DNA from: Caldimonas mangrovi
GTDB lineage: Bacteria > Pseudomonadota > Gammaproteobacteria > Burkholderiales > Burkholderiaceae_C
DNA length: 64,000 nucleotides
Assembly: GCF_023721835.1 (NCBI RefSeq)
Contig: NZ_JAMKFE010000004.1
Coordinates: 1-64,000 of the forward strand
Direction: 5' to 3'
Part shown: piece after piece, positions 1,543-35,504 of the stretch
How the letters are laid out: the number at the start of each line of letters is the position of its first letter
How positions within the stretch are numbered: position 1 is the first letter of the stretch
The notes under the pieces: model-generated
The model's database searches: none
Told to the model about the DNA's origin: nothing
The model's input: only the letters and a program-made list of their open reading frames with translations
Translations under genes and position numbers: made by a program

Positions 1543-1573
1543 CCGATCGTGGATCGCCGGTCGCACGCCGGCA

Positions 1574-3739: not shown

Positions 3740-3782
3740 GGCGTACTCCTTGTGCTTGCTTTCTGGCGGAACGTCCGGCGCA

Positions 3783-4145: not shown

Positions 4146-4189
4146 AGCTCTCTCCGTTTTCGCCAATTTCGGAACTTGCCGGGAAATCT

Positions 4190-4642: not shown

Positions 4643-4846
4643 CAACACGGGTCTCCACGTTGAGGGCTTTCGCTTCAGGCGTCCCAGTAGAATTTTCAGC
4701 AGTCCCGGCCTCGGCGTACGCCCGATAAGGCAAGGAATCAGACAGCTATTCGGCATGGATGGGGTCGCCCTGTAGGACTTTTTTCTCGGATCGGGGCTTG
4801 CTCATACGACAGAAGGCCCAGCGAGCAGGCCCCGGTCAAACATGCG
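4643..4846. promoter_or_regulatory. Divergent intergenic region, che operon / sensor kinase
   Basis: These 204 bases separate the minus-strand chemotaxis operon from the plus-strand sensor kinase and must hold both promoters. I see a weak sigma-28-like arrangement for the che operon on the minus strand (TACA, 16 bases, GCCGAATA, about 4747-4774) but not a convincing one. Nothing else stands out. Confidence 0.4.
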
Positions 4847-19585: not shown

Positions 19586-19640
19586 AAGACTGGGCTTTCG
19601 CTGGTGCTCAAAGGTTCTGCAGGTCACGGATCAACCGAGT

Positions 19641-19717
19641 GACGCCGCGGATCCGGCTTTGCCGGTCCGCCAGCGTCGCCCCCTCGAGGGGGCGGCCGCA
19701 GGCCGTAGGGGGTGGTC
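19641..19717 (-). repeat. Dispersed palindromic repeat, copy 3, inside flhDC
   Basis: Same element as copy 2 and in the same orientation: GACGCCGCGGATCCGGCTTT, then GCCCCCTCGAGGGGGC, then GGCCGTAGGGGGTGG. It occupies the flhD-flhC spacer and ends three bases from the flhD stop codon. The hairpins would form in the flhDC mRNA between the two reading frames. Confidence 0.9.
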
Positions 19718-19719
19718 TG

Positions 19720-20046
19720 TCAGGCGGCTTCCCGGTGCCGGCCGGCCAACACGATGGAGGCGTGCAGTCGCGAGGTGCCGTCGTTGGCCGCGGCCTTGCC
19801 ATGGTTGGTCAGCAGGCCCCACACCAGTTCGTCGTCGAAGCGGAAGCGGCACAGCAGCGTGTTGCCCGAAGCGATCTTCATCATTTGCGCCGGGGTCAGG
19901 ATCGCCAGCATCTCGGCGGTGTCCTCGCTGATGCCCAGGCGGAACAGCGCCTCGTCGCGGTCCGCGCGGATCAGGTTCTGCGCCAGCATCAGGTACGACA
20001 GGTTGGCTTCGCGGATTTCGGTGAGGATCTGTTCGGCGGTGGTCAT
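19720..20046 (-). CDS. flhD: Flagellar transcriptional activator FlhD
   Basis: DNA-binding partner of FlhC, 108 residues, starting MTTAEQILTEIREANLSYLM behind AGGAG at seven bases. It has the conserved helices LAQNLIRADRDEALFRLGIS and LAILTPAQMMKIASGNTLLC. Length is close to the family norm. It is the promoter-proximal gene of flhDC. An upstream in-frame start at 20085 is disfavoured by the strong ribosome site at 20046. Confidence 0.98.
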   Translation of the reverse strand: MTTAEQILTEIREANLSYLMLAQNLIRADRDEALFRLGISEDTAEMLAILTPAQMMKIASGNTLLCRFRFDDELVWGLLTNHGKAAANDGTSRLHASIVLAGRHREAA

Positions 20047-20350
20047 TCGGGACTCCTGTCTTGCTGCGGTCTGGCGGGGGCCCAAGGGGCTGTTCGATGG
20101 GATGAATTCTGGCGAACCCCCCGGGGGCGCGATATCAGGGGCGTTCTGTGCCCAGCGTCGCTTCGCAGGTGCCGCCGTGTCGGACAGATCCCTACAAAAG
20201 CGTCCTGTGTACCGGTCATTTCCGGTTCAGGTTTGTTCCGTCGCGGCCGAGCGGGCCCGGCGTCAGGAATGGCGGGGCAAAACGGCGTTGATCGGCGCTT
20301 TGCGGGGGGGACGGGTTTCGATAATCGGCCCAACACCCAAAGGAGCGTTC
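20047..20350. promoter_or_regulatory. Divergent flhD / glycosyltransferase promoter region
   Basis: These 304 bases must contain the master-operon promoter (minus) and the promoter of the glycosyltransferase (plus). An inverted repeat, ACCGG and CCGGT around seven bases, lies near 20211-20228. AAAGGAG sits before the glycosyltransferase start. I see no sigma-28 promoter; a GCCGATTA on the minus strand near 20323 has no matching -35. Confidence 0.4.
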
Positions 20351-21583
20351 ATGTCAGAGCCCCTGGTCAGCATTTGCATCCCGACCTACCACCGCAGCCG
20401 CTATCTGGAGTCGCTCCTGACCAGCCTGCACGACCAGCTCGCGGGTTTTCCGCATACGTACGAGATCGTCATTTCCGACAACGCGTCGCCGGACGACACG
20501 CCGGACGTCATCGCGCGCTTCGCCTCGTCGTTGCCGATCCGTCACTACCGGCAAGACAGCAACATCGGCGGCGCGGCGAACTGGCACTTCGTCGTCACGC
20601 GGGCGCAGGGCGAGTTCATCATTTCGCTGGGCGACGACGATGCGTTGCTGGGCGAGCAGACCGCACAGGCGATCCACTGCCTCAACGCGATGCCGAGCGT
20701 CGGTGCCGCCTTCGCGCCCTGGGTGCTGTACGACCTGCCGTCGGACAAGAAGCTCGGCCTGTTCTATACCCACCCGGACGACTTCCTGGTGCCGCAGGGC
20801 GATCACCGGGCGCTGCTCGACGGGGTGCTGCAACACCGCATCTGGCCGGAGATCGGCATCGTGCGCCGCCAACTGCTGCACCGCGTCATGCCGCGCGTGC
20901 CGGAGCACGCGTTCTATGCCTTCGTGCACGCGGGCGAATACCTGTCGCGGTCCGACGTCGTTTTTCTCAAGGATCCGTTCTACGTCTTCGTGGTGCGTCA
21001 TTTCCACGGCGACAAGCGCGCACAGACCGGCACCCAGGAAGCGATGCAGGCATGGGACCGTTACCGAGGTGGCCTCGAATACCTGATGTCGCGCTTCGCC
21101 TCGACGCTGGCGCCCGAGGAACGCAACGCCTACCTGACCCGGATTTCGTCGTTCATCGGCGAGCGCATGGCGATGGCGGTGAAGCTGCGCCTGCGGAGCC
21201 GGGCCGACCCGGTCGACACCTTCTACCTCGCGGCCCGGGCCACGGCCCTCGGCGCAGCGCGCGGGCTGCCGGAACCGATGCAGCACCTGCGCTCGCGGGC
21301 GGCGCTGCATTTCCTCACCCACGATGCCGAGCTCAACCGCGACAAGCGCCGGCTCGTGTGCATCGGCAGCTTCGAGGACGGCGTGCGCCGCGGCCTGGCG
21401 CAGCAGGGGGCGGGCGAGGTGAGCTTCTACGACAGCCTGCCGGACCTGCAGCATTTCAGCGATGCGCTGGTCTTCGTGCGCGACGCGAAGGCGGTCGAAG
21501 GCCTGGACATGGAGCCGCTGCTCGCGCAGCGCAACGTGCACGTGGTCCGCGAAGCCGACCTGATGGCGAAGTTCGCCTGTTGA
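20351..21583 (+). CDS. Family 2 glycosyltransferase
   Basis: GT-A fold glycosyltransferase of 410 residues. The opening LVSICIPTYHRSRYLESLL and the acidic motifs VISDNASPDDTPD and ISLGDDDALL mark family 2. A C-terminal section of about 100 residues (DAELNRDKRRLVCIGSFEDG onward) looks like a separate small alpha/beta domain that I do not recognise. AAGGAG precedes the ATG by six bases. It runs convergently towards the sugar operon and is a candidate for adding or extending a glycan built there. The acceptor is unknown. Confidence 0.88.
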   Translation: MSEPLVSICIPTYHRSRYLESLLTSLHDQLAGFPHTYEIVISDNASPDDTPDVIARFASSLPIRHYRQDSNIGGAANWHFVVTRAQGEFIISLGDDDALLGEQTAQAIHCLNAMPSVGAAFAPWVLYDLPSDKKLGLFYTHPDDFLVPQGDHRALLDGVLQHRIWPEIGIVRRQLLHRVMPRVPEHAFYAFVHAGEYLSRSDVVFLKDPFYVFVVRHFHGDKRAQTGTQEAMQAWDRYRGGLEYLMSRFASTLAPEERNAYLTRISSFIGERMAMAVKLRLRSRADPVDTFYLAARATALGAARGLPEPMQHLRSRAALHFLTHDAELNRDKRRLVCIGSFEDGVRRGLAQQGAGEVSFYDSLPDLQHFSDALVFVRDAKAVEGLDMEPLLAQRNVHVVREADLMAKFAC

Positions 21584-21632: not shown

Positions 21633-22367
21633 TCAGCCCTTCACGCGCTTCAGGTAGCCTTGCGGCGCCACCGTGATCAGCAGCTTGGCTTCCAGGTCTT
21701 CATCGACCACGAAGCTGTCGTTCTCCTGCAAGTACGCGCGTACCGCCGTCTTCGGGTTGTCCCCGGGTTTCCACGGCCGTTCGCCGGTGAAGAAATGCGC
21801 CGGCATGTCCTCGACCAGCGTGTCCATCACGATGCAGTAGCCGCCCTCGCACACCAGTGGCGCATAGGCCCGAAGTTCGGCCAGCACATGCTCGTGGGTG
21901 TGGTTGGAGTCGAGCACGACGATGGCTCGCTTGCCGCGTGCCAGCTCGTGCACCTGGCTGATCACGGCCGCGTCGATGGACGAGCCCTGGATCATGCGCA
22001 GGCGACGGCTCATCGGGTGCGCCTCGATGGCCTCGCGGTTGTGGGCCCGGATGTCGATGTCGACGCCGATCACTTCGCCGTGCCCGGCCAATTCGAGCAG
22101 CGAGGCGTAGTACAGCACCGAGCCGCCGTGCGCAATGCCCGTCTCGATGATCAGGTCCGGCTTGACCTGCCAGACGATCTCCTGCATGGCCATCATGTCC
22201 TGCGGGAACTGGATGATCGGCCGACCCATCCAGGTGAAGTTGTATGCGTACTTGTGCGGCGTGATCTCTCGCAGCCAGATGCGCGACAGCGCCTGCACGT
22301 CGCGGTCGGCCTTCAGGCCGTCGACATTGCTGCGCACTTCCTGCTCGAATTGCTCATGCGGGTTCAT
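21633..22367 (-). CDS. CmcI-family (cephalosporin hydroxylase-like) SAM-dependent methyltransferase
   Basis: A 244-residue Rossmann-fold enzyme beginning MNPHEQFEQEVRSNVDGLKA, with GGAGGACC as ribosome site. The SAM site reads DLIIETGIAHGGSVLYYASL and EVIGVDIDIRAHN, followed by IVVLDSNHTHEHVLAELRAY. This is the CmcI/rhamnosyl O-methyltransferase-like family, often found in polysaccharide clusters. It is the last gene of the operon and overlaps the WbqC-like gene by 14 bases. An O-methylation of the finished sugar is plausible but inferred. Confidence 0.85.
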   Translation of the reverse strand: MNPHEQFEQEVRSNVDGLKADRDVQALSRIWLREITPHKYAYNFTWMGRPIIQFPQDMMAMQEIVWQVKPDLIIETGIAHGGSVLYYASLLELAGHGEVIGVDIDIRAHNREAIEAHPMSRRLRMIQGSSIDAAVISQVHELARGKRAIVVLDSNHTHEHVLAELRAYAPLVCEGGYCIVMDTLVEDMPAHFFTGERPWKPGDNPKTAVRAYLQENDSFVVDEDLEAKLLITVAPQGYLKRVKG

Positions 22368-23082
22368 GCACAAAGGTCCTCCAGGAAACGGTGTCGGAAC
22401 AGAGATGGCGTGCCCCGTCGCGTCCGCAGTGCGCGACGAGATCGAGACCCGAGACATACGGCGTGAATTCGCCGTGCGACTGCGGGTAGGGCAGACGGCG
22501 GTAGTCCATGTACTGTACGTCGACGCCGGCCTGCTCGAACGTTTCGTGGGCGAGGTAACGTGCCGCGCCGTGGCCGGTGACGTAGGTGTCGCCGCCGAGG
22601 CGCCGGACCACCGCGAGCACCCGCTCGCTGCTGTCGCCCGGGATGCCGAGTTCGCGCACGTCGACGAAACGTGTGCCGGCGTCCAGCCCGAAGTAGCGCA
22701 CCAGCGCCATCATCGAGGCGCGGGCGAGCGAGCCGACGTGGGGGTGGTTGCCGGCGTACACCTCTTCCGCGAGCCGCAGGGCGTCGGCCCGGTACGGGGC
22801 CTGCGCCAGGCTGCGGTGCAACAGGTCGAGATGCCGGGCGCACCAGGCGGCGGCAGGTGCGATCTGCACCTCGTCGATACGCTGCCCGAGATGCAGGTCT
22901 TGCAGCGGCACGGTCATCCAGCGCACACCCCGGGGCGTCTTCAGCTGCACCCGGTTCACGAAGCTGCCCTTCGAGAACTGCACGTCGTCGTAGTGGACGA
23001 ACACGTCGGCCAGGCGCACCTGTTCGAGCAGGCCCACCCAGGGGAACAGCATGGATTGCGAGATGACGATGCGCAGGCTCAT
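22354..23082 (-). CDS. WbqC-family protein
   Basis: A 242-residue protein starting MSLRIVISQSMLFPWVGLLE. The N-terminal pattern ISQSMLFPWVGLLEQV, then FVHYDDVQFSKGSFVNRVQL, belongs to the WbqC family. Members are common in O-antigen and flagellin-glycan clusters and their reaction is not well established. It overlaps the GNAT gene in ATGA and the CmcI-like gene by 14 bases. A role in sugar maturation is inferred from context only. Confidence 0.85.
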   Translation of the reverse strand: MSLRIVISQSMLFPWVGLLEQVRLADVFVHYDDVQFSKGSFVNRVQLKTPRGVRWMTVPLQDLHLGQRIDEVQIAPAAAWCARHLDLLHRSLAQAPYRADALRLAEEVYAGNHPHVGSLARASMMALVRYFGLDAGTRFVDVRELGIPGDSSERVLAVVRRLGGDTYVTGHGAARYLAHETFEQAGVDVQYMDYRRLPYPQSHGEFTPYVSGLDLVAHCGRDGARHLCSDTVSWRTFVHEPA

Positions 23083-23612
23083 GGCAGCGCGCCGGGCGCG
23101 GCCGGGCCGAGAAACAGGTCCATCAGCACCACGTCGCGCCAGCTGCCTTCGATGCAGACGTGCTCGCGCAGCAGGCCGCAGGGTTCGAAGCCGAGCCGTC
23201 GATAGCACCGCACGGCGCGCTCGTTGTCCGAACGCACACGCAGGCTCACTTTGCGCAGGTTCCAGGTCTCGCGCAGATAGGCGAAGGCGAGCCGCAGCGC
23301 TTCGCTGCCGGCGCCCCGGCCCTGGGCCTCGGGGGCCAGGCAGATGCCGAGGTCGGCACGGCGGTCCACGGAGTCGAGGCCGGTGAACTGCAGATACCCG
23401 AGCGCCGCATCGGTGTGCCGGTCGGCCACGACGAAAAAGAGGTTGCTGCCGCAGGCGCGCTCGCGCAGCCATTCGCGCACCTGCGCTTCGTTGCTGCCGC
23501 GTGCGCGGGCCAGCAGCTGGGCCTGCAGCGCCACGTCGTTGCGCCAGCGCAGCAGCGCCGGCAGGTCGGCCTCGCACCAGGCGCGCAGGCGCACGGTCTC
23601 GCCGGCCATCAT
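23079..23612 (-). CDS. GNAT-family N-acetyltransferase, sugar-operon associated
   Basis: A 177-residue acetyl-CoA-dependent transferase. It starts MMAGETVRLRAWCEADLPAL in ATGA overlap with the upstream methyltransferase gene. The acetyl-CoA loop reads LAPEAQGRGAGSEALRLAFA, followed by KVSLRVRSDNERAVRCYRRL and GFEP, a RimJ/PseH-like pattern. With a 4-aminotransferase three genes upstream, N-acylation of the new amino group is the simplest role. The acyl donor is not decidable from sequence. Confidence 0.88.
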   Translation of the reverse strand: MMAGETVRLRAWCEADLPALLRWRNDVALQAQLLARARGSNEAQVREWLRERACGSNLFFVVADRHTDAALGYLQFTGLDSVDRRADLGICLAPEAQGRGAGSEALRLAFAYLRETWNLRKVSLRVRSDNERAVRCYRRLGFEPCGLLREHVCIEGSWRDVVLMDLFLGPAAPGALP

Positions 23613-24760
23613 GCGGGCACTCCGTCCAGGTACACCAGTTGCACGCCGCGCGAGCGCAGCCAGCCCATGGGTTGCATCGCTGCACGGGCGATGGCCGGGT
23701 TCAGGCCGACATACAGCGTGCGGACGTCGTCCGGTAACTGCTCGGGTGCCAGCACCGGCTTGCCGAACAGCGTCTTGCCCTGCTGGAACGGGCTGCGGTC
23801 GAGGAAGCAGCGCAGCGGCTGCGTCGATCGCAGCGTGCTGGCGATGTAGGCACCGTAGAACCCGGAGCCGTAGACCGCCGCAGGCGCGTCGCCGGTGGCC
23901 CGTTCGGCCTCGGCGATGCGCGCTTCCAGGCTCGACCAGTAGCGGGCGAGTTCGAGCGACCGCTGCACGGCATCCCGCACGTCCGGGCAAGGCGTGCGCG
24001 GCCCCTGCTTGCGCGCCACGAAGACCAGCGCGCCGCGGTGCGCGGTGGCGTCGATGTCGATCGATTCGAAACCGGCGCCGCGCAGCAGCACGTGCAGCGA
24101 TGACGGCGTGAAGTGGTTCACATGGTCGATGACGACGAAGTCGGCCACGTTGCCGAAAGTATCCGGCACGACGCCGTAGAAGATGCCATCCGCCTTCAGC
24201 AGCCGCGCCACCTTCTCGACGGTGCCGCCGGGGTCTGGGATGTGTTCGAGTGCGAAGAACGAGGTGATGGCGTCGAAGCGTGCTTCCCAGTGTGGCGGCG
24301 TGAGGTGCATCGCGCGGCGCTCCGGTGGCACGAAACGGTCCCAGTGGGCGGTGTACATCGCGCTCACGTCGAACAGGTGCACCTGCAGGTCGGGGCGCTG
24401 AGCGAGCAGGCGCTGCGGCGTCGAGGCCTTGGCGCAACCGTAGTCGAGCAGCAGCGCGCCCTCGGGCAGCGCCAGCTTGGACGCCAGCGTGCTGACCTGA
24501 TGATCGGTGCGGTAGACGATACGCTCGCCGTGCACCTCGTAGATCTGGTCCTCGTCGTCCTGGTCGAGCAGGATGCGGTAATCGGACGCGTAGTAGCGGT
24601 CGGTGTCGTCGAGCGCCTCACCACGCAGGTGCCCGCAGTGCGGGCACGACCACACGCGCGTGCGCCCCGTGCGGAATTCGCACAACGAGGTCAGTGCCCG
24701 GTCGGAGCCGGCGTCGTAGATCGGGTCGCCCAGCGGCGTGCGGCAAACGTTGCAATCCAT
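23609..24760 (-). CDS. Class I SAM-dependent methyltransferase with zinc-binding N-terminus
   Basis: A 383-residue enzyme with two Cys pairs (C3/C6 in CNVC and C39/C42 in CPHC) like the zinc module of sugar C-methyltransferases. A SAM-binding domain (LLLDYGCAKASTPQRLL, ITSFFALEHIPDPGGTVEKV) and a C-terminal Rossmann-like region (AAVYGSGFYGAYIASTL) follow. This is the same three-part plan as the C-methyltransferase at 26725, but the two are diverged. It may methylate the sugar at another position. It begins nine bases after the dioxygenase gene and overlaps the GNAT gene in ATGA. Confidence 0.85.
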   Translation of the reverse strand: MDCNVCRTPLGDPIYDAGSDRALTSLCEFRTGRTRVWSCPHCGHLRGEALDDTDRYYASDYRILLDQDDEDQIYEVHGERIVYRTDHQVSTLASKLALPEGALLLDYGCAKASTPQRLLAQRPDLQVHLFDVSAMYTAHWDRFVPPERRAMHLTPPHWEARFDAITSFFALEHIPDPGGTVEKVARLLKADGIFYGVVPDTFGNVADFVVIDHVNHFTPSSLHVLLRGAGFESIDIDATAHRGALVFVARKQGPRTPCPDVRDAVQRSLELARYWSSLEARIAEAERATGDAPAAVYGSGFYGAYIASTLRSTQPLRCFLDRSPFQQGKTLFGKPVLAPEQLPDDVRTLYVGLNPAIARAAMQPMGWLRSRGVQLVYLDGVPA

Positions 24761-24769
24761 GTCTATGGG

Positions 24770-25615
24770 TCAATTGGCGCACAACTCGGGGTGCACGGTG
24801 CGGAAGTCCACACCGGCCGCGAAAGAGCCCTTCCAGCCGTGAGAGCGGCCGACCGGCTCGGCGAAGTTGAAGTAGCGGAATTGCATCGACCAGCGCGAGC
24901 GCCGGCCGCGGTTGTGCCCGGACGCGTGCAGCAGCAGGAAGTCGATCACGGCCAGGTCGCCCGGTTGCAGCAGCGGCGCGACGCGCTCGTAACGGGCCAG
25001 CAGCGCTTCCTCGTCCTTCAGCATCAGGCTGTACGCGCCGCTGCGCTCGGGGCGGCCCGGATCGGCGGTGTACACCGGCACCGGCCCTTCGCGGTGGGAG
25101 CCGGGGCAGAATTGCACCGGCCCCATCTCGGGCGTCAGCGGCACCAGCGGGCTCCAGAACACCAGGCCGTCGAGGCTGCGCAGTTGCGCCGGGTATTCCT
25201 GGTGCCACTGGGCACGGAAGCGGTCTTCGTCGGGGTTGTCGATGCGGATGCCGTAGCCACCGCCGGCGATGCCCGGCTGGCTGCCCGGGCGCAGCTCGCG
25301 CATCAGCTGTTCGTGTGCAGGGTGCGCCACCAGGCGCACGAAGGCCGGCACTTGCTTGACGGCGTCGTACACCTCACCGCCCCAGGCCCGGTCGGTGCGG
25401 ATGAGGTCGAGATAGCCGCCGTCGAACTCGGCCGGCACGCAGGGGCCGCGCTGGTCGGGCAGGCCATGCCGAGCCATCACCTGGCCGATCACCGCGTGGA
25501 TACCGCGCTGCACCGGTTCGATGTCGGCGCCGAGATCGTAGAAGCCGGGCACGACCAGCAGGCCGGTCTCGGCGAAGGCGCGGCGTTGGGCGTCGGTTAG
25601 GAGAGGCTGGTTCAT
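24770..25615 (-). CDS. Phytanoyl-CoA dioxygenase (PhyH) family protein
   Basis: A 281-residue cupin-fold Fe(II)/2-oxoglutarate-type oxygenase. The likely iron ligands are H138 and E140 in QWHQEYPAQ (HxE rather than the commoner HxD) and H230 in LLLHASGHN, with R237/R241 nearby for 2-oxoglutarate. The stretch GPVQFCPGSHREGPVPVY is typical of PhyH proteins. It sits nine bases after the aminotransferase stop. Hydroxylation of the sugar or its acyl group is the contextual guess. Confidence 0.85.
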   Translation of the reverse strand: MNQPLLTDAQRRAFAETGLLVVPGFYDLGADIEPVQRGIHAVIGQVMARHGLPDQRGPCVPAEFDGGYLDLIRTDRAWGGEVYDAVKQVPAFVRLVAHPAHEQLMRELRPGSQPGIAGGGYGIRIDNPDEDRFRAQWHQEYPAQLRSLDGLVFWSPLVPLTPEMGPVQFCPGSHREGPVPVYTADPGRPERSGAYSLMLKDEEALLARYERVAPLLQPGDLAVIDFLLLHASGHNRGRRSRWSMQFRYFNFAEPVGRSHGWKGSFAAGVDFRTVHPELCAN

Positions 25616-25624
25616 CGTGGTTCT

Positions 25625-26728
25625 TCACGCGTGCAGCGCGCGCCGCACATGGGCGACGACGCGGTCGATGTCGGCTTCGGTCAGGTCGTGGTAGCTCGGC
25701 AGGTTCACGCCGCGGGCGGGCAGCCCGTAGGCCACGCGGTTGCGCGGACGAGCCTCGAACATCGGCAACTGGCTCAGCGGCCAGAAGAAGACCCGGCCGT
25801 CGATCCGGTCGGTCTGGAAGGCAGCGAGCAGCGCTTCGCGGTCGAACGGCACACCCTCGTCGACCACGACGGTGGGCATCCAGTAGCCGTTCACGCAGTG
25901 GGCGGGCTCGGGGTTCATCGACAGCGGCAATCCGCGCAGGCGTTCGGCGTAGGCGCGGAACACGCCTCGCTTGGCGGCGATCAGTTCGTCGATGCGCTCC
26001 AGCTGCGCGCAGCCCACGGCGGCCTGCAGGTTGGACATCTTGTACTTGAAGCCCAGCATGTCGGGCCAGAACTGGCGGCTCTGGCCGGCGGCCCGGCCGT
26101 GGTTGCTCATCGTCAGCACGCGCTCGTGCAGCTGCGCGTCCTGCGACACCCACATGCCGCCCTCGCCGGTCGTCAGCGTCTTGGTGCCGTGAAACGAGAA
26201 CGTGCCGAAGGCGCCCATCGAGCCGGCAGGCCGCCCCTGCCATGCCGAGCCGATCGCCTCGGCGGCGTCTTCGACCACCGGAATGCCGTGCCGGCGGCCG
26301 ATCTCGAGCAGCGCATCCATGTCGCACAGGTTGCCGTACAGGTGCACCGCGATGATGGCCTTGGTGCGCGGCGTGATGGCTTCCTCGACGCATGCCGGGT
26401 CGAGGCACCAGGTGTCGGGCCGCACGTCGACGAACACCGGCTTTGCGCCGAGGTAGGTGACGGGTGCCGCCGACGCGATCCAGTTGATGTCGCCGAGGAT
26501 GACTTCATCGCCGGCGCCCACCCCCAGGGCGGCCAGGCCCATGTGCATCGCACCGGTGCAGCTGGAGGTGGCGATCGCGTGCCGCACGCCCAGGTGGGCG
26601 CGAAAGCCGGCCTCGAAGCGCTGGATGTATTCGTAGCAGCGCTCGCCCCAGCCGTGCCGGGCAGCGTCGCTCACGTACTCGACTTCGAGCTCGGTGATCG
26701 ACGGGCGGGTGTAGTGGATGCGGTTCAT
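25625..26728 (-). CDS. DegT/DnrJ/EryC1 sugar aminotransferase
   Basis: PLP-dependent transferase of 367 residues acting on a nucleotide-linked ketosugar. The PLP lysine is K183 in SFHGTKTLTTGEGG, and the cofactor aspartate is D154 in VVEDAAEAIGSAW. It closely resembles the perosamine-synthetase (RfbE/Per) subgroup, which aminates C4. The start overlaps the stop of the C-methyltransferase in ATGA. In a CDP-4-keto-6-deoxyglucose operon, a 4-amino product is expected; the position is inference. Confidence 0.93.
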   Translation of the reverse strand: MNRIHYTRPSITELEVEYVSDAARHGWGERCYEYIQRFEAGFRAHLGVRHAIATSSCTGAMHMGLAALGVGAGDEVILGDINWIASAAPVTYLGAKPVFVDVRPDTWCLDPACVEEAITPRTKAIIAVHLYGNLCDMDALLEIGRRHGIPVVEDAAEAIGSAWQGRPAGSMGAFGTFSFHGTKTLTTGEGGMWVSQDAQLHERVLTMSNHGRAAGQSRQFWPDMLGFKYKMSNLQAAVGCAQLERIDELIAAKRGVFRAYAERLRGLPLSMNPEPAHCVNGYWMPTVVVDEGVPFDREALLAAFQTDRIDGRVFFWPLSQLPMFEARPRNRVAYGLPARGVNLPSYHDLTEADIDRVVAHVRRALHA

Positions 26729-27948
26729 GTCAGCTCCAGCGCCGGCACCGCGGTCGCGAAGCGGCCGCCCCAGTCGCGGATGTAGTCCAGCTGCGCGGTG
26801 ATCTCGCTGCGCAGGTTCCACGGCAGGATCAGCACGACGTCGGGCCGGACGCGGCGCAGGTGCGATTCGTCGACCACGGGGATGCGCGAGCCGGGCAGGA
26901 AGCGGCCCTGCTTGTGTGGCGACGCATCGACGACGAAGGGCAGCAGGTCGGGCCGCACGCCGGCGTAGTTCAACAGCGTGTTGCCCTTGGCCGCTGCGCC
27001 ATAGCCGGCCACGGTACGGCCGGCGCGCTTGTGTTCGATCAGGAAGCCGAGCAGCTCGTCCTTGATGCGTTCGGCCCGGGGCTGCAGCCCGCGGTAGAAC
27101 GACGGCTCCAGCATGCCGGCGCGCTGCTCCTTGTCGAGCATCGCGGCCACCCGTTCGCCGGCCGGGCGGGTGTGCGACGCATGCTGCGCCCACACGCGCA
27201 GCGAGCCGCCATGGGTCGGCAGCTCCTGCACGTCCCAGACCACCAGTCCCTGCTGCGCGAAGATGCGCTGCACGGTGTGAAACGCCAGATACGAGAAATG
27301 CTCGTGATAGACGGTGTCGAACTGCGACTGCTGCACCAGTTGCAACAGGTGCGGAAACTCGACCGTGACGGTGCCCTGCGGTGCCAGCGCCTCGCGCAGG
27401 CCGGCGACGAAGTCATTGATGTCGGGCACGTGCGCCAGCACGTTGTTGCCCAGCACGAGGTCGGCACGGCGGCGCTGCGCGACGAACTCGCGCGCGAAGG
27501 AGGCGCCGAAAAAGCGTTCGATCGATTCGATGCCGCGCGCACGTGCCGCTTGCGCGGTGCTGGCGGTCGGCTCAATGCCTACACAGGGGATGCCGCGGTC
27601 GCGCACGTACTGCAGCAGGTAGCCGTCGTTCGAGGCCACTTCCATCACCAGCGAGTCGCGCCCGAGCTGCAGCCGCTGGGCTGCCTCGTCGACATAGCGC
27701 GCGGCATGCGCGAGCCAGCTCGGCGAGTACGACGAGAAGTACACGTAGTCGTTCGAGAACAGCGCGTCATGCCGTTGCACCTCGTCGACCTGCACCAGAT
27801 GGCAGGTACCGCAGGTATAGACCTTGAGCGGGAAGTACAGCTCCGGCCGGTCGAGGTCCTCGCGGCGCAGGAAGGCGTTGGACGGAGGGGCCGAGCCCAG
27901 GTCGACGAACACGTCGTGCAGTCCGGCGGCGCAGTGGCGGCACTTCAT
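26725..27948 (-). CDS. Nucleotide-sugar C-methyltransferase (TylC3/CloU-like)
   Basis: A 407-residue enzyme with three modules: a zinc-binding N-terminus (C3/C6 and C46/C49), a SAM domain (VMEVASNDGYLLQYVRDRGI, LGNNVLAHVPDINDFVAGLR) and a C-terminal domain (GYGAAAKGNTLLNYAGV) seen in sugar C-methyltransferases. Family members such as TylC3 methylate C3 of 4-keto-deoxysugars. The conserved segment TVYHEHFSYLAFHTV, with the catalytic His-Glu-His, is present. It overlaps its neighbours in ATGA on both sides. Confidence 0.92.
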   Translation of the reverse strand: MKCRHCAAGLHDVFVDLGSAPPSNAFLRREDLDRPELYFPLKVYTCGTCHLVQVDEVQRHDALFSNDYVYFSSYSPSWLAHAARYVDEAAQRLQLGRDSLVMEVASNDGYLLQYVRDRGIPCVGIEPTASTAQAARARGIESIERFFGASFAREFVAQRRRADLVLGNNVLAHVPDINDFVAGLREALAPQGTVTVEFPHLLQLVQQSQFDTVYHEHFSYLAFHTVQRIFAQQGLVVWDVQELPTHGGSLRVWAQHASHTRPAGERVAAMLDKEQRAGMLEPSFYRGLQPRAERIKDELLGFLIEHKRAGRTVAGYGAAAKGNTLLNYAGVRPDLLPFVVDASPHKQGRFLPGSRIPVVDESHLRRVRPDVVLILPWNLRSEITAQLDYIRDWGGRFATAVPALELT

Positions 27949-28496
27949 GCGGCCGTCCCTTCGCGCAGCGACCGCAAGTGCGGGAGGGCGCGGTCGCGCT
28001 CCGAGACAACGGTCACCGGCAGCGGCCATGCGATCGCGAGGCCGGGGTCGTCGTGGGCCACTCCACCCTCGGCCTCGGGAGCGTAGGCGGCGGTGTGCTG
28101 GTAAAGCAGGTGCGCGTCGTCGGTGAGCGCCTGAAAACCGTGCGCGCAGCCTTCCGGGATGAACACCTGCAGGTCGTTGTCGTCCGTCAGCTCCACTGCG
28201 TGCCAGCGGCCGAAGGTCGGCGACTGCGGGCGCAAGTCGACGGCCACGTCGAACACGCGGCCGCGCAGGCAGCGGATCAGCTTGGCCTCGGCATGAGCCG
28301 CGGTCTGGTAGTGCAGGCCGCGCACGGTGCCGCGTCGGGCGGTCACCGAGTGGTTGACCTGGACGAAGCGCAGGTCGGGGCGGATGGTGGCGAAGGCCTC
28401 GCTGCAGAACAGCCGCGCGAAGCGGCCGCGCTCGTCGCCGCGGGCGGATGTCTGCACGGTCCACATGCCGTGCAAGGGGGCGGGCGTCAGCTTCAT
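27945..28496 (-). CDS. dTDP-4-dehydrorhamnose 3,5-epimerase-like protein (RmlC family)
   Basis: A cupin epimerase of 183 residues. The catalytic-His motif is GTVRGLHYQ, and FIPEGCAHGFQAL is the RmlC signature. It starts [20 protein letters not shown]. Its neighbours make CDP- rather than dTDP-sugars, so it probably acts on CDP-4-keto-6-deoxyglucose, epimerising C3, C5 or both. ATGA overlaps at both ends tie it tightly to rfbG and the C-methyltransferase. Confidence 0.9.
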   Translation of the reverse strand: MKLTPAPLHGMWTVQTSARGDERGRFARLFCSEAFATIRPDLRFVQVNHSVTARRGTVRGLHYQTAAHAEAKLIRCLRGRVFDVAVDLRPQSPTFGRWHAVELTDDNDLQVFIPEGCAHGFQALTDDAHLLYQHTAAYAPEAEGGVAHDDPGLAIAWPLPVTVVSERDRALPHLRSLREGTAA

Positions 28497-29596
28497 GTGC
28501 GGGCCCAGGCCAGTCCGGCGCGCTGCGCGTCGGCGACGTATTGCTGCAGGTCGTGGTGGCTCGCGATGCGGCCGGCCTCGTGATAGGCGCGGTACCACTG
28601 CGCGGTGCGCGCCAGCATGGTGTCGGCATTCCACACCGGGTGCCAGCCGAGCTGCTCGCGCGCCTTGCGGCAATCGAGGTGCAGCAGGTGTGCCTCGTGC
28701 GGCTGCGGGCTCGGGTCCACGCGGTGCCGCACGGCCGGCCAATGCTGCGCGAAACGGTCGATCAGTTGCAACACCGTGAGGTGGGCGCAGCTGCTGGGGC
28801 CGAAGTTCCACGATTGCGCGTGGATCTCGCCTTCTTGCAGCAGGCGCTGGGCGAGCAGCAGGTAACCCGACAGCGGCTCCAGCACGTGCTGCCATGGCCG
28901 CACGGCATGCGGGTAGCGCACCGTGGTGGCGCCCTGATTCAACGCTGCGCGCACCAGGTCGGGCACGATGCGGTCTTCCGACCAGTCGCCGCCGCCGATG
29001 ACGTTGCCCGCTCGCGCCGTGGCCAGCGCGACCGGGCGGCCGGACGCTGCAGCGCCGAGAAAGCTGGCACGGTAGCTCGCGGACACCAGCTCCGCGCAGG
29101 CCTTCGACGCACTGTAGGGGTCGTGCCCCCCCAGCGCGTCGGTTTCGACATAGGCCCGCCCGTTGTCGAGGTTCTCGTAGCACTTGTCGGTCGTCGCGTT
29201 GACGACGGCGCGCACGCTCGGCATCGCGCGAACGGCTTCGAGCAGGTGGACCAGCCCGATGACGTTGGTCTGGAAGGTGCCGGCCGGTTCGCGATAGCCC
29301 TTGCGCACCAGCGACTGCGCCGCCAGATGGAACACGATCTCGGGCTCGAAGCGCTGCACGGCTTCGCGCACGGCACCGGCGTGGTTCAGGTCGACCAGCG
29401 CCTCTTCGATCGGCAGGTCCAGTGCACGCATGTGGCTGTGGCTGCCCTCGGCGGGCAGCGACAGGCCGCAGACGCGGGCGCCCATCGCTTGCAGCCACAA
29501 CACCAGCCACGAGCCCTTGAAGCCGGTATGGCCCGTGACCAGCACGCGCCGGCCGACGTAGGCCCCGGCGAAGAGCCGCGAGAACCAGTCGTTCAT
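28493..29596 (-). CDS. rfbG: CDP-glucose 4,6-dehydratase
   Basis: Converts CDP-glucose to CDP-4-keto-6-deoxyglucose with NAD. It has 367 residues. The NAD-binding motif is [12 protein letters not shown], the catalytic Tyr-Lys pair is in [11 protein letters not shown], and [11 protein letters not shown]-like [17 protein letters not shown] is the family marker. The start at 29596 is in ATGA overlap with rfbF. Because no rfbH-type 3-dehydrase follows, the 3-hydroxyl should be retained for the later C-methylation step. Confidence 0.96.
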
Positions 29597-30363
29597 GCCC
29601 ACACCTTCCAGGGCGCCTCGTTGCCCTGCCACAGCTCCTCGAGCCTGATCTTGTCGCGCAGCGTGTCCATCGGCTGCCAGAAGCCCTCGTGCGTGTAGGC
29701 CGAGAGCTGCCCGTCGCGCGCCAGCGCTTCCAGCGGCTCGCGTTCCCAGGTCGTTCGATCGCCGTCGATCAACTCGATCGCCTCGCGTTCCAGCACGAAG
29801 AAGCCGCCGTTGATCCAGCTGCCGTCGCCCTGGGGCTTTTCCTCGAAGCGGGTGATGCGCTTGTCCTCGATGTCCAGCGCGCCGAAACGCCCGGGCGGCT
29901 GCACCGCGGTCACGGTGGCCATGCGCTTTTGCTGTTTGTGGAATTTCACCAGCCGCGTGATGTCGACGTTGGACAGGCCGTCCCCGTAGGTGAAGCAGAA
30001 CGGGCTCTCGTCGAGATAGTCCTTCACACGCTTCAGGCGCCCGCCGGTCTGCGTCTGCTCGCCGGTGTCCACCAGCGTCACCCGCCAGGGCTCGCAGTGG
30101 CGATGGCAGACTTCCATGCGGTTTTCCGCCAGGTCGAACGTGACGTCCGACATGTGCAGGAAATAGTTGGCGAAGTATTCCTTGACGATGTAGCCCTTGT
30201 AGCCCAGGCAGACGATGAAGTCATTGATGCCGTGGTGCGAGTAGAGCTTGAGGATGTGCCACAGCACCGGCTTGCCGCCGATCTCGACCATGGGTTTCGG
30301 CCGTACCGAGGTTTCCTCCGCCAGGCGGGTACCGAGTCCCCCCGCCAGAATGACTGCCTTCAT
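29593..30363 (-). CDS. rfbF: Glucose-1-phosphate cytidylyltransferase
   Basis: Makes CDP-glucose from CTP and glucose 1-phosphate, the entry step of the operon. It has 256 residues. The nucleotide site reads [20 protein letters not shown] and PMVEIGGKP, then [14 protein letters not shown] and [20 protein letters not shown]. All are characteristic of RfbF. It is the first of the ATGA-coupled genes and begins 101 bases after the stop of the GT41 enzyme gene, so it may share that transcript or have its own promoter in the gap. Confidence 0.97.
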
Positions 30364-30464
30364 CGCTGTCCTTCATGAATGCGGCCCGCATGGGCCCTTG
30401 CGCACGTTCACAAGTTACCGAAGGCGGCCGGCAGCGAAGGCCGGAAATCAGGCCGGAAGTGGGG

Positions 30465-32408
30465 TCAATTCAGCGGGGCCGCCGGCAGGTGCTCGGGCGG
30501 CAGCCCGGCGCGGGCCCGTTCGGCCATGCGCTGGTACAGGCCTTCCAGGCCGGCGGCGAAGCGCGCGCCGTCGAACACCGGGAAGTGCAGGCGGCCTTCG
30601 CGCAGGTGCCGGCGCAGTCGCTCCAGCCTCGGGCGGTCGCGCAACAGCCCGATCGCGGTGGCCTCGTAGCCGGCCGGCGAGTCGCAGATGAGCTCGGGCA
30701 GGCCGACCGCGTCGAGCAGGCTGGCGGCGACCCGCGAGGCGAAGGTGGGCCCCGCGTAGGTCACGATCGGCACGCCCATCCACAGCGCATCGCTGGCGGT
30801 GGTGTGGGCGTTGTAGGGCCAGTTGTCGAGCATCAGGTCGGCCAGCGGCAGCCGGGCCAGGTGCTTCGCGAAGCCGGCTTTGGGCGCAAAGATCAACCGG
30901 CGCGCCGACACGCCCCGGGCTTCGGCTTCGCGGCGCAGGTTGGCCGTGGCCTGGGGGTTGTCCTCCAGCAGCCACAGGCAGCTGTCGGGCACCGCCTGCA
31001 GGATGCGCATCCAGCTGTCGAAGGTCTCGGGGACGATTTTGTAGGCCTGGTTGAAGCAGCCGAGGACCAGGGCGTCGGCCGGCAGCCCCCACTGCCCGCG
31101 GGTGGCGGGCTCGGGGAAGGGCCGTTGCAGGTCGTTCGGTTGGTAGCACTGGGGCATCTGCGCAATCTTTTCGGTGTAGTGGGGCGCGTGCTCCAGCGGC
31201 GTGACCCAGCGGTCGCCGATGACGTAGTCGATGTAGTCGGCGCCGCAAGTGCCCGGAAAGCCGAGAAAGGCCACCTGGATCGGCGCGGGCCGGTAGGCGA
31301 AAACGCCGATACGGCTGTCGTGGGTGTGGCCCTTCAGGTCGACCAGGATGTCGATGCCGTCGGCGCGGATGCGTTCGGCCATCTCGCGCAGGCTGACGGC
31401 GCGCATGTCGACGAAGCGGTCGCAGGCGGCTCGCACCCGTTGCTGCATCGCGCTGTTGTCGTCGCGGCCGTACGAATATAACGTGACGTGAAACCGTTCA
31501 CGGTTGCGTGCTTCCAGCGCCCCCACCATCAGCATGGCGGTGGCGTGGTTGTGGAAATCATTGGAGACGTAGCCCACGCGGATGGGACACCCGGCCGCAC
31601 CGACCGCGGGCGCGCCTTCCAGCGGCACGACGCCGCGCGCGTGCAGCAACGCCGCGTGCCGCGCCGCCTGCCGGAAGGCCGACGGCGGATGCGGTAGCGC
31701 GGCCAGCGCGAACACGCCGCCTTCCGCGCGCTCGGCACCCTCCAGTTCCATCGTGCGCAGGCCCTGCAGCAAGGCTGCGCACGCCGCGTCGAAGCGGCGC
31801 CAGTCGCAGGCGTGCTGGCGCATGTGCAGCGCCATCAGGCGCGACGACAGGTCGTGTTCGTCGAGCGTGGCGGCGGTGTCCAGGCTCTCGGCCGCCTCTG
31901 TATAGAGCTTCATGCCGCGCAGCGCCAGGCCCAGGCGGACATGCACCACCGGGTTCGAGACCTCCAGCGCCATGGCTTCCAGCAGCACCGCCACGGCTTC
32001 CTCGTGGCGCGATTGCCGGGTGAGGGCGACGCCGAAATTCAGCATGAACTTGAACTGCTGGCGCCCGCCGAGGCCGGCCATGCGCTCGAACATCGGCAAG
32101 GCCTCGGCCCAGCGGTTCTGCGCCACCAGTGCCAGGCAGGCCACGTGGCCGGCCTTGAAGTTGTGCGGCTCGAGTTGCAGCGCCCGCTCGGCCGCGCTCA
32201 GCGCGCCGTCGAACTGCGCCAGGTTCAGCCGCGCCGAGGCGAGAGTCACCCAATCCTGCACGGAAAAGCGCTGGTCGGGCGACAGCCGCGCCAGTTCGCG
32301 CTCCGCTTCCTGCCATTGCCCGCCGATAACACATTCGTAGGCGCGCCGGCGCGACTGTAGATAGTGGCGCTCGCGGTCCGGCTGGGTGGGAGAGACGTGG
32401 CGTTGCAT
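30465..32408 (-). CDS. TPR-containing GT41 (O-GlcNAc transferase-like) glycosyltransferase
   Basis: A 647-residue cytoplasmic protein. The N-terminal 240 residues form TPR-like helical pairs (FDGALSAAERALQLEPHNFK, EAVAVLLEAMALEVSNPVVH). The catalytic half matches SPINDLY/OGT: GYVSNDFHNHATAML with the conserved His, CFNQAYKIVPETFDSWMRIL, and MLDNWPYNAHTTASDALWMG followed by FASRVAASLL. The family transfers sugar to Ser/Thr of proteins. It lies directly upstream of, and divergent from, the flagellin genes, and heads the CDP-sugar operon, so flagellin is the obvious acceptor. The donor need not be UDP-GlcNAc. Confidence 0.92.
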   Translation of the reverse strand: MQRHVSPTQPDRERHYLQSRRRAYECVIGGQWQEAERELARLSPDQRFSVQDWVTLASARLNLAQFDGALSAAERALQLEPHNFKAGHVACLALVAQNRWAEALPMFERMAGLGGRQQFKFMLNFGVALTRQSRHEEAVAVLLEAMALEVSNPVVHVRLGLALRGMKLYTEAAESLDTAATLDEHDLSSRLMALHMRQHACDWRRFDAACAALLQGLRTMELEGAERAEGGVFALAALPHPPSAFRQAARHAALLHARGVVPLEGAPAVGAAGCPIRVGYVSNDFHNHATAMLMVGALEARNRERFHVTLYSYGRDDNSAMQQRVRAACDRFVDMRAVSLREMAERIRADGIDILVDLKGHTHDSRIGVFAYRPAPIQVAFLGFPGTCGADYIDYVIGDRWVTPLEHAPHYTEKIAQMPQCYQPNDLQRPFPEPATRGQWGLPADALVLGCFNQAYKIVPETFDSWMRILQAVPDSCLWLLEDNPQATANLRREAEARGVSARRLIFAPKAGFAKHLARLPLADLMLDNWPYNAHTTASDALWMGVPIVTYAGPTFASRVAASLLDAVGLPELICDSPAGYEATAIGLLRDRPRLERLRRHLREGRLHFPVFDGARFAAGLEGLYQRMAERARAGLPPEHLPAAPLN

Positions 32409-32853: not shown

Positions 32854-34047
32854 ATGGCAATGACCATCAACACCAACGTGGCTTCGCTCACGGCGCAACG
32901 CAACCTGAATTCGTCGCAGAGCACCCTGGCCACTTCGATGCAGCGCCTGTCTTCAGGCCTGCGTGTCAACAGCGCGAAGGACGACGCCGCCGGCCTCGCC
33001 ATCGCCGAGCGCATGAACGCCCAGACGAAGGGCCTCAACGTCGCGGCGCGCAACGCCAACGACGGCGTCTCGCTGGCGCAGACGGCCGAAGGCGCGCTGG
33101 GCAAGGTCGGCGACATGCTGCAGCGCATGCGTGAACTGGCCGTGCAGTCGGCCAACGCGACCAACAGCGAAGATGACCGCAAGGCCCTGCAACAGGAAGT
33201 CGGACAACTGCGCGACGAAATCGACCGCGTCGCCAAGCAGACCTCGTTCAACGGCAAGAAGCTGCTCGACGGCTCCTTCTCTGCAGCCAGCTTCCAGGTT
33301 GGCGCCAATGCCGGCGAAAACATCACGATCGCCGCGCTGACCGATTCTTCCTCGGAAGGTCTGTCGGACATCAACTACGGCGAAGCCGAGATCGCCTCGA
33401 TCGATTCCGCGGACGTGACGTCGCTCGATTCGATCGACGCCGGTGACCTGAAGATCCACGTCGACAGCGATTCGTACGACCTGGCCGAGATCAGCAAAGC
33501 CGCGACCGCCGAGGAGCGTCTGGGCCAGACGGTTGAAGCGATCAACCGCCGCTCTGCCGACACCGGCGTGACCGCCTACCTGACCAAGGAAGACGACGGC
33601 ACGTACACGATGCAGATCCGTTCGTCCGCCGTGGACGAGGATGGCGAGGCGCTGGACGTGACCTTCGAGGGCTTCACGACCGAAGCCACCGGCGTGACGG
33701 CGGCCGACATGGACACGACCGCGACCAACACCACCGGCATCGACGAGCTGTCGGTCGAGACCGCCGAAGACGCGTGGCTGGCGATCAAGCAGATCGACGA
33801 CGCGCTGAACCAGGTGAACAGCGCCCGTGCGACGCTGGGCGCGGTGCAGAGCCGCTTCGAGAACGCGGTGTCCAACATCGCGATCCAGGCGGAGAACACC
33901 GCAGCAGCCCGCGGCCGTATCGTCGACGCCGACTTCGCCCAGGAAACCGCGAACCTGTCGAAGGCGCAGATCCTGCAGCAAGCCGGTACCGCGATGGTGG
34001 CGCAAGCCAACCAGATGCCCCAGCAAGTGCTGTCGCTGCTGCGCTGA
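32854..34047 (+). CDS. fliC: Flagellin 1
   Basis: Major filament subunit, 397 residues. The N-terminal D0/D1 reads [20 protein letters not shown] and [20 protein letters not shown]; the C-terminal D1/D0 reads [17 protein letters not shown] and ends [14 protein letters not shown]. The central region is short, acidic and Ser/Thr-rich, offering O-glycosylation sites. An in-frame ATG at 32860 is less well placed than 32854. It has a sigma-28 promoter and its own terminator. It is closely similar to the second flagellin at 34308 along its whole length, so the pair looks like a recent tandem duplication. Confidence 0.98.
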
Positions 34048-34307: not shown

Positions 34308-35504
34308 ATGCCTCAAACCATCAACACCAACATCAATTCGCTGACCGCTCAGCGAAATCTGAACTCTTCGCAGAGCTCGCTGGCAACGTCGATGCAGCGG
34401 CTGTCCTCGGGCTTGCGTGTGAACAGCGCCAAGGACGACGCCGCGGGGCTGGCGATCGCCGAACGCATGAACACGCAGGTGCGCGGCCTCAATGTCGCCG
34501 CCCGCAACGCGAACGACGGCATCTCGCTGGCGCAGGTGGCCGAAGGCGCGCTGGGCAAGGTCGGCGATATGCTGCAACGCATGCGTGAGCTGGCCGTGCA
34601 GGCCGCCAACGCGACGAACAGCGAAGCCGACCGCGGCGCGTTGCAGGCCGAAGTGCAGCAGCTGCGCGACGAAATCAACCGTGTGGCCAAGCAGACGGCG
34701 TTCAACGGACAGAAACTGCTGGACGGCTCCTTCTCTGCGGCGACCTTCCAGATCGGTGCCAATTCCGGTGAAAGCATCACGGTCGCGGCGCTGACCGATG
34801 CATCCGCCGAAGGCCTGTCCGACATCAACTACGGCGAGGCGGAGGTGGCTTCCATCGACGCGACCGCCGTGACCAGCCTGGACGAGATCGCCGCGGGCGA
34901 CCTGAGCATCTTCGTCGACACCGAGGAATTCGAGCTGCCGGCCATCAACGAGGCCGCCACCGCGGAAGAGCGCCTCGGACAGACGGTCGAGGCGATCAAC
35001 CGGCGCTCCGCCGACACCGGCGTGACCGCCTACCTGGCGCGCGAGGACGACGGAACCTACACGATGCAGATCCGCTCGTCCGCGCTGGACGAGAACGGCG
35101 ACGCGCTGGACGTCACCTTCAGCGGCTTCGCGACGGAAACCACCGGCGTCAGCGCGGCCGACATGGACACCACGGCCACCAACGTCGGCGGCATCGACGA
35201 GTTGTCGATCGAGACGTCGGAGGATGCATGGCTGGCGATCCAGCAGATCGACGATGCCCTCGACCAGGTCAACAGTGCGCGTGCGACGCTCGGTGCGGTG
35301 CAGAGCCGCTTCGAGAACGCCGTGTCCAACATCCAGATCCAGTCGGAGAACACCGCTGCGGCGCGTGGACGCATCATGGATGCGGACTTCGCGGCGGAAA
35401 CCGCCAACCTGTCGCGGGCGCAGATCCTGCAGCAGGCCGGCACGGCGATGGTGGCCCAGGCCAACCAGTTGCCGCAGCAGGTGCTGTCGCTGTTGCAAGG
35501 CTAA
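34308..35504 (+). CDS. Flagellin 2
   Basis: Second filament subunit, 398 residues, starting [20 protein letters not shown] and ending [15 protein letters not shown]. It shares with flagellin 1 not only the D0/D1 ends but also the variable middle ([20 protein letters not shown] is identical), which points to recent duplication. Differences concentrate in the region after ASIDA (for example TEEFELPAINEAA against [12 protein letters not shown]). Its transcription seems independent of the first gene. Confidence 0.97.
   Translation: MPQTINTNINSLTAQRNLNSSQSSLATSMQRLSSGLRVNSAKDDAAGLAIAERMNTQVRGLNVAARNANDGISLAQVAEGALGKVGDMLQRMRELAVQAANATNSEADRGALQAEVQQLRDEINRVAKQTAFNGQKLLDGSFSAATFQIGANSGESITVAALTDASAEGLSDINYGEAEVASIDATAVTSLDEIAAGDLSIFVDTEEFELPAINEAATAEERLGQTVEAINRRSADTGVTAYLAREDDGTYTMQIRSSALDENGDALDVTFSGFATETTGVSAADMDTTATNVGGIDELSIETSEDAWLAIQQIDDALDQVNSARATLGAVQSRFENAVSNIQIQSENTAAARGRIMDADFAAETANLSRAQILQQAGTAMVAQANQLPQQVLSLLQG

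Follow-up and report, generated by a model that had tools for sequence, protein, structure and literature searches.

What is the function of a run of carbohydrate-type genes placed in the middle of a flagellar gene cluster? The question is raised by the first 64,000 nucleotides of contig NZ_JAMKFE010000004.1 of Caldimonas mangrovi (Burkholderiales; RefSeq assembly GCF_023721835.1), hereafter the window, a flagellar region of 67.4% G+C within a 5.5-Mb genome. Eleven intact minus-strand genes at positions 21633-32408 are bounded by flhDC on one side and by two flagellin genes on the other; ten of them form a tight operon, and the eleventh, 101 bases upstream on the same strand, encodes a protein with tetratricopeptide repeats (TPR) and a family 41 glycosyltransferase (GT41) domain. 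The locus is read here as a flagellin glycosylation island, in which the ten-gene operon would make one defined nucleotide sugar that is attached to the flagellins via GT41, with or without a family 2 glycosyltransferase (GT2), and this reading is given a probability of about 0.72. By comparison of gene content and synteny, the operon sugar probably decorates the flagellar filament.

Gene families were assigned with Pfam and NCBIfam, and the list of eleven genes in the first-pass annotation of this DNA proved correct, with all genes present and intact and the families as named. The coupling that it described as ATGA junctions or nine-base gaps agrees with the measured intergenic spacing, which from the GT41 gene runs 5' to 3' as 101, then -4, -4, -4, -4, 9, 9, -4, -4, and -14 bases (the last with the start of the CmcI-type gene best set at 22367; the mechanical open reading frame start at 22457 gives a 104-base overlap with the WbqC gene). 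The inventory of ten operon genes plus GT41 was nevertheless short by one, since a plus-strand GT2 gene between flhDC and the operon had been overlooked. The insertion between flhDC and the two flagellin genes consists of GT41, GT2, and the ten sugar genes, and fliD is also present on the flagellin side.

The association of the GT41 gene with flagellin recurs in related bacteria. GT41 matches (E<=1e-60) are present in 49 of 120 related genomes, source genome included, and flagellin genes lie near GT41 in 14 of the 20 stretches surrounding the 20 best matches outside the source genome (the other six include one 6-kb contig). The flagellin site is constant, but the content of the island varies among close relatives: the same-genus genomes G002 and G006 carry a shorter cassette in the same place (RfbF, RfbG, RmlC, C-methyltransferase, DegT, CmcI, and GT2), and in G001, G007, and G008, GT41 and the flagellins are present but no sugar gene of the ten was detected in the fetched 20 kb. 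The GT41-flagellin pair therefore survives without the cassette, an indication that the sugar genes are exchanged. The C-methyltransferase (E<=1e-130) was found in 54 of 399 genomes of the family, source included (the sample gives no row for G002 and G006, and the counts omit both). At >=58% identity, 22 of the 33 loci have flagellar genes nearby, versus 0 of 21 below 58%, a split set after seeing the data for 54 places in 53 genomes other than the source; of the 11 loci above the split that lack flagellar genes, seven are fragments no longer than 12 kb. Seven further stretches without a query place fall outside the 54, two with flagellar genes (L078, L081) and five with none (L076, L077, L079, L080, L115). 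Separately, three to four GT41-like pieces in a row adjoin the cassette and flagellins in L073 and L088, which suggests several GT41 paralogues per island.

The families encoded in the operon suggest a specific product. RfbF and RfbG, the two enzymes of the route to cytidine diphosphate (CDP)-4-keto-6-deoxyglucose, both score above their curated equivalog cut-offs. Because of the enzyme families of the first four genes, RfbF would make CDP-glucose, RfbG would convert it to CDP-4-keto-6-deoxyglucose, the RmlC-type enzyme would epimerise this intermediate, and the TylC3-type enzyme would add a branching methyl group, presumably at C3. The closest match of the C-methyltransferase in the PDB is the D-mycarose 3-C-methyltransferase 4rv9 (E 5.2e-68), and the YHEH stretch is kept. 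A 4-amino group, introduced by the DegT enzyme, is predicted because the aminotransferase resembles perosamine synthases (closest solved chains 3bn1, 3dr7, and 3dr4, E about 1e-85), which aminate C4. The remaining families suggest N-acylation by the GNAT and O-methylation by the RMNT/CmcI enzyme; the N-acyl group would be built or decorated by the GNAT, PhyH, second methyltransferase, and WbqC proteins, and the ring would be O-methylated by the CmcI-type enzyme. The GNAT scores 49.2 bits against the PseH model, below the cut-off of 93.1 (PseH is one of several NCBIfam matches, not the best, and all are below cut-off), and the CmcI-type protein scores 106.9 bits against a rhamnosyl O-methyltransferase model with a cut-off of 400. 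In PhyH, H138 and H230 are kept in all 38 aligned relatives and position 140 is E in 34 and D in 4, while a profile search gave leucine hydroxylase as the best match (E 1.7e-9) without a hint of the substrate. For WbqC, no solved relative was found by sequence up to E=1, a profile search against solved structures gave three matches (best E 0.3), and none of the 12 titles and abstract starts listed in a literature search for it concerned its function. We infer as the end product a CDP-linked 4-acylamido-4,6-dideoxy-3-C-methyl-O-methyl-hexose, that is, an N-acylated, O-methylated 4-amino-4,6-dideoxy-3-C-methyl sugar resembling mycobacterial kansosamine, which is an N-acylated 4-amino, 3-C-methyl, 2-O-methyl sugar. 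Members of the C-methyltransferase, aminotransferase, and O-methyltransferase families that a kansosamine-type pathway would need are all present, their regiochemistry and donor being predicted.

Table 1. Features of the flagellin glycosylation island and its flanks (positions in the window).
Feature	Position	Strand	Family evidence and remarks
TPR + GT41 (OGT-like) protein glycosyltransferase	30465..32408	-	647 aa, divergent from fliC; PF13844 305 bits plus TPR families
RfbF, glucose-1-phosphate cytidylyltransferase	29593..30363	-	TIGR02623 469.6 bits, cut-off 300.25
RfbG, CDP-glucose 4,6-dehydratase	28493..29596	-	TIGR02622 448.7 bits, cut-off 278.45
RmlC-type 3,5-epimerase (nucleoside diphosphate 4-keto-sugar)	27945..28496	-	TIGR01221 178 bits, cut-off 155.75; RmlC structures E 2e-41
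Sugar C-methyltransferase, TylC3/MtmC/TcaB9 type (presumed 3-C)	26725..27948	-	Methyltransf_13/23/14 (Methyltransf_14 209.4 bits)
DegT/DnrJ/EryC1/StrS aminotransferase (presumed 4-aminotransferase)	25625..26728	-	PF01041 403.5 bits
PhyH-family Fe(II)/2-oxoglutarate oxygenase	24770..25615	-	PF05721 49.8 bits
Second S-adenosylmethionine methyltransferase, distant relative of C-methyltransferases	23609..24760	-	Methyltransf_23 57.8 bits; 4rv9 E 1.6e-5
GNAT acetyltransferase (presumed N-acylation of sugar amine)	23079..23612	-	PF13302 76.7 bits
WbqC-family protein	22354..23082	-	PF08889 199.4 bits
RMNT/CmcI-type O-methyltransferase (presumed 2-O)	21633..22367	-	PF04989 (RMNT_CmcI) 302.9 bits; CmcI 2bm8 E 2.8e-9
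GT2 glycosyltransferase, probably an island member	20351..21583	+	PF00535 63.5 bits; convergent with operon, between flhDC and operon
Flagellin 1, presumed acceptor	32854..34047	+	Flagellin_N + Flagellin_C
Flagellin 2, presumed acceptor	34308..35504	+	Flagellin_N + Flagellin_C
flhD	19720..20085	-	Flank of island; flhDC pair 19049..20085, PF05247 and PF05280
flhC	19049..19627	-	Flank of island; flhDC pair by PF05247 and PF05280

A third, weaker Flagellin_N match (72.7 bits) lies just beyond the window near hook genes (C34:64605-65015) and possibly represents FlgL.

The ten genes also travel together well outside the Burkholderiales. Patterns from a three-sequence PhyH alignment were scanned over a species-genome collection, and the best 80 of 102 relatives were surveyed as module loci, 17 of which are shorter than 20 kb, so that absences in these are lower bounds. 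All ten genes are present in 41 of the 80 loci and at least nine in 60, each of the ten occurs in 61 to 80 loci (PhyH by construction), and the gene order of the window, with exactly ten genes, recurs in 16 of the 63 loci of at least 20 kb (strand not compared). By record label the module spans seven phyla, each with a nine- or ten-gene locus, although many records are metagenome bins whose labels (e.g., Mycobacterium L162, Akkermansia L153, Verrucomicrobiota L157) are possibly mistaken. FliC or FliD is found in 18 of the 80 loci (Roseateles, three Curvibacter, nine Ralstonia or near relatives, a Neisseriaceae, Pseudomonas khazarica, Sphingobium, a Planctomycetota bin, and a Nitrospirota bin); seven of these contain all ten genes and ten contain at least nine, with eight genes in seven Ralstonia-type loci and six in the Planctomycetota bin. 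On a quick tree of three module proteins with many long branches (76 rows including the window, five of 81 having been dropped for lack of a usable frame for one of these proteins), the flagellar label requires 8 changes, 6 of them forced by supported branches, versus 17.2 in shuffles; with the short non-flagellar loci unscored, the values are 7 and 5 versus 16.8. Judged by this tree, the flagellar label is clustered by descent yet gained or lost several times. Taken at the level of gene content and order, the ten genes look like one mobile, exchangeable unit making a single unusual sugar.

A recent import of anomalous composition was ruled out by the G+C content of the module, which matches that of the window (68.6% versus 67.2% for the rest of the window, the only background used for comparison), and the divergent G+C that is a hallmark of the Enterobacteriaceae islands is accordingly not seen here. 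Plasmid spread is not supported, PhyH having no match at E<=1e-40 in 72,556 plasmid records, nor is a phage origin, as PHROGs holds nothing for WbqC or PhyH and the second methyltransferase matches a weak tRNA-methyltransferase family only. Several loci depart from the full set. CmcI is missing from the fetched Roseateles locus. Eight Ralstonia-type flagellar loci (L138, L140, L142, L143, L145, L146, L148, L149) contain the module without the C-methyltransferase, which is retained in Ralstonia bin L126; their content suggests an unbranched version of the sugar. Hoeflea loci L134, L141, and L151 carry the half from PhyH through the second methyltransferase, GNAT, and WbqC to CmcI without RfbF, RfbG, or the C-methyltransferase in the fetched locus, in the manner of a separate submodule. 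All ten genes, at 36-70% identity, stand beside an Lhr-type helicase in L162, binned as Mycobacterium, which could reflect real transfer or a binning error.

Two glycosyltransferases could deliver the sugar. The GT41 protein has a TPR region and a GT41 catalytic domain that aligns with the Xanthomonas campestris OGT (2jlb) over residues 129-631 (PDB phmmer, E 2.3e-84); the alignment to 2jlb/2vsn keeps SNDFxNH, NQAYK, and PYNAHTTASDALW stretches, which we take to surround the active site (His, Lys, PYNAHTTASDALW). This enzyme would recognise flagellins in the cytoplasm and attach the first sugar to Ser/Thr, and the exotic sugar would either be taken directly by GT41 or be added on top by the convergent GT2, as by the flagellin transferase VioT. 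The distribution of GT2 indicates that it probably belongs to the island. It occurs (E<=1e-50) in only 7 of the 399 family genomes, source included, and every one of these belongs to the 54 that have the C-methyltransferase (hypergeometric 6e-7; by genus 6/6 versus 32/141, 9e-5). GT2 is present in the islands of G002, G006, G013, G041, G042, and G247, and in G041 and G146 it has remained next to GT41 even though the cassette lies 90 kb off or on a different contig. Contig C9 of G013 carries both GT2 and GT41, separated by other open frames, and the cassette of this genome sits on C25 next to other flagellar genes. Across the module survey, GT2 homologues (>=37% over 300 aa) are found in 11 of 18 flagellar loci, nine of these from Ralstonia or a near relative, versus 1 of 62 other loci, and this sole non-flagellar case (L179) has a GT41-like end at its edge.

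A number of observations weigh against the island reading. FliC and FliD are not seen in 62 of the 80 module loci, the nearest module relatives on the tree after Roseateles are non-flagellar Pseudomonas and Pokkaliibacter loci, and some loci adjoin pilin or polysaccharide-type genes (few non-flagellar loci had their neighbours scanned). Because the module also sits away from flagella, the sugar is not flagellin-specific in nature. GT41 (E<=1e-90) is present in 157 of the 399 family genomes versus 54 with the C-methyltransferase, and because it is so much more widespread than the cassette its donor need not be the cassette sugar. GT2 (E<=1e-50) is missing from 47 of these 54 genomes. Curvibacter delicatus (G022, the contig of L152) has the whole module by its flagellins without a match to GT2 or to GT41 (E<=1e-90), so that neither transferase is needed everywhere. 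Against a sigma-28 consensus, the fliC-GT41 gap holds just one weak sigma-28-like site, with two mismatches, at two neighbouring spacings. Finally, the Mycobacterium kansasii genes compared below have putative functions, which the cited portion of the source does not assign to kansosamine (PMC4403928).

Set against the comparative results, these points qualify the first-pass annotation without overturning it. Its proposal of a flagellin-directed sugar operon was borne out by the position of GT41 beside flagellins and of the closer cassettes beside flagellar genes. Its inference that GT41 puts the sugar on the filament describes one of two candidate routes; in the family sample, GT2 was never seen without the cassette. 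A synteny search of the kind that it suggested found the same ten genes beside flagellins elsewhere, but beside pilins and polysaccharide-type genes as well, and since it had named an operon beside O-antigen or capsule genes, with no effect on flagellin when deleted, as a refutation, these loci away from flagella are a partial concession to the contrary view.

The best-surviving alternative is that flagellin receives the exotic sugar as a single residue straight from its CDP form through GT41 alone and that GT2 has another role, a proposal that stands rather below even odds. GT41 immediately precedes the operon in the same orientation, and it occupies the corresponding place before RfbF in G002, G006, G042, and G247; the TPR glycosyltransferase FlmG requires a pseudaminic acid donor (PMC7591256). 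The odds of this proposal were raised slightly because GT2 is missing from most genomes with the C-methyltransferase. However, GT41 is still found by the flagellins of G001 and G008, two genomes without a C-methyltransferase match (E<=1e-130), GT2 occurs with the cassette only (7/7 genomes), and in nine Ralstonia-type loci GT2 is the transferase present, with no GT41 match (E<=1e-6) within 10 kb. We lean slightly towards an arrangement in which GT41 primes flagellin and GT2 then adds the exotic sugar, VioT being a precedent for a separate distal transferase.

Alternatively, the sugar could be supplied in trans to more than one appendage (flagellin and type IV pilin), with the locus as only one storage place of a general protein-glycosylation sugar. 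Type IV pilin genes occur near the module in Dyella (L125, at 1639-4962, where Pfam Pilin was confirmed for both pilin genes; L130, at 390) and Lysobacter (L136, at 791-3208; L137, at 1870-2915), and since pilins were sought by one sequence motif, further pilin loci may be missed. L125 and L136 also have a large hydrophobic protein near the module that matched no Pfam or NCBIfam family and may be a pilin glycosyltransferase. In Aquabacterium G041 (the contig of L118), a complete module in the window order adjoins pilB, pilC, and pilD, and GT41 and GT2 remain with the flagellins ~90 kb away. In the window, by contrast, the scanned neighbours other than GT2 are flagellar wherever a family matched, and for this locus the storage explanation is improbable.

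Polysaccharide-type genes are the module's neighbours in Dyella L125 (a flippase-type Polysacc_synt gene and GT4 genes), Rhizobium L167 (a Wzz/GNVR-type protein), cyanobacterial bin L155 (GT4/GT11-type genes), and Pseudomonas L131 (a UDPG/GDPM dehydrogenase and extra DegT genes), and RfbF and RfbG are classic O-antigen enzymes. That the operon sugar is destined for O-antigen or exopolysaccharide, its flagellar setting being incidental, is nonetheless the least probable of the three alternatives: the module recurs with flagellins (18/80 loci; the tree forces 5 to 6 changes of the label), the 30 proteins of the window that were scanned include no Wzx, Wzy, or Wzz type, and the genome's matches to Wzz and Wzy_C fall on contigs C3, C23, and C50 and not on the island contig C34. 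O-antigen or capsule synthesis was accordingly ruled out as the principal explanation. The genome's single matches to RfbG (E<=1e-20), the C-methyltransferase (E<=1e-130), and GT41 (E<=1e-60) are all at this locus.

Apart from the island itself, the distribution of the module indicates that different hosts probably use the one sugar on flagellin, on pilin, or in polysaccharide. A broader proposal, put forward tentatively as not far short of an even chance, treats the ten genes as a pathway complete in itself, common among bacteria and passed horizontally between them, whose product is one CDP-activated branched amino sugar not described before. On this view PhyH, the second methyltransferase, and WbqC would be novel enzymes that tailor the sugar or an acyl group, and bacteria of at least seven phyla would plug the module into the surface glycoconjugates at hand: flagellin by way of GT41/GT2, type IV pilin by way of a membrane transferase, or polysaccharide. 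Different appendages would then carry one and the same rare sugar. The locus offers a concrete pathway proposal for a flagellin sugar and a handle on WbqC, a family for which no solved relative was found. Because much the same set of ten genes is found next to flagellin, pilin, and polysaccharide genes, determining one structure would allow the glycan to be predicted in dozens of genomes and would reveal how sugars are traded between protein appendages and polysaccharides.

Parts of the predicted pathway have counterparts in other systems. The C-methyltransferases of antibiotic pathways (TylC3/MtmC/TcaB9) have the same three-domain architecture and active-site stretch as the window enzyme; they act on thymidine diphosphate (dTDP) sugars, unlike the predicted CDP-linked donor here. 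In Sinorhizobium meliloti, ddhA, ddhB, and a nucleoside diphosphate hexose 3-C-methyltransferase gene lie in a row (PMC4053727). The lipooligosaccharide cluster of M. kansasii contains glucose-1-phosphate cytidylyltransferase, epimerase/dehydratase, rhamnose epimerase, and methyltransferase genes in that order, without orthologues in M. marinum, and some M. kansasii lipooligosaccharides contain N-acyl kansosamine; this sugar is on a glycolipid, not a protein (PMC4403928).

Among flagellin glycosylation systems, FlmG of Caulobacter crescentus is a TPR glycosyltransferase that glycosylates flagellin in the cytoplasm and is required for flagellin modification. By domain description it is similar to the window GT41, with an N-terminal TPR region and a C-terminal GT-B glycosyltransferase domain, but its donor is pseudaminic acid whereas the window operon is of the CDP-hexose type (PMC7591256). 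In the viosamine island of Pseudomonas syringae, VioT adds a modified viosamine distally on the flagellin glycan; this sugar, like the predicted one, is 4-N-acylated, 4,6-dideoxy, and 2-O-methylated and has its own transferase, but it is made by a dTDP route from a different gene set, with fatty-acid-type acyl enzymes and no C-methyl branch (PMC3927599). The closest published parallel in organisation is provided by the Enterobacteriaceae flagellin glycosylation islands described by De Maayer and Cowan in 2016, inserts by fliC, of which those with GT41 number 11 distinct islands in 198 strains (PMC4875605). As here, they combine GT41 with aminotransferases and methyltransferases and their contents are swapped between strains, and FGI 23 (4 strains) shares CDP-4-keto-6-deoxyglucose genes with the window island. 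They differ in sitting between fliC and fliA and not between flhDC and the flagellins, and in having one glycosyltransferase family per strain where GT41 and GT2 coexist here; the main text of that study does not contain the words phytanoyl or cephalosporin hydroxylase, and the cited portion of it does not describe the ten-gene module (PMC4875605). Nor was a description of the module found in a search of the full-text literature by titles and abstract starts, most subscription papers lying outside its coverage, where an earlier description is possible. GT41 flagellin islands, even with CDP-4-keto-6-deoxyglucose genes, are thus already published, and the Caldimonas island is ordinary in kind and new in content; its more interesting part is the wide, exchangeable ten-gene module.

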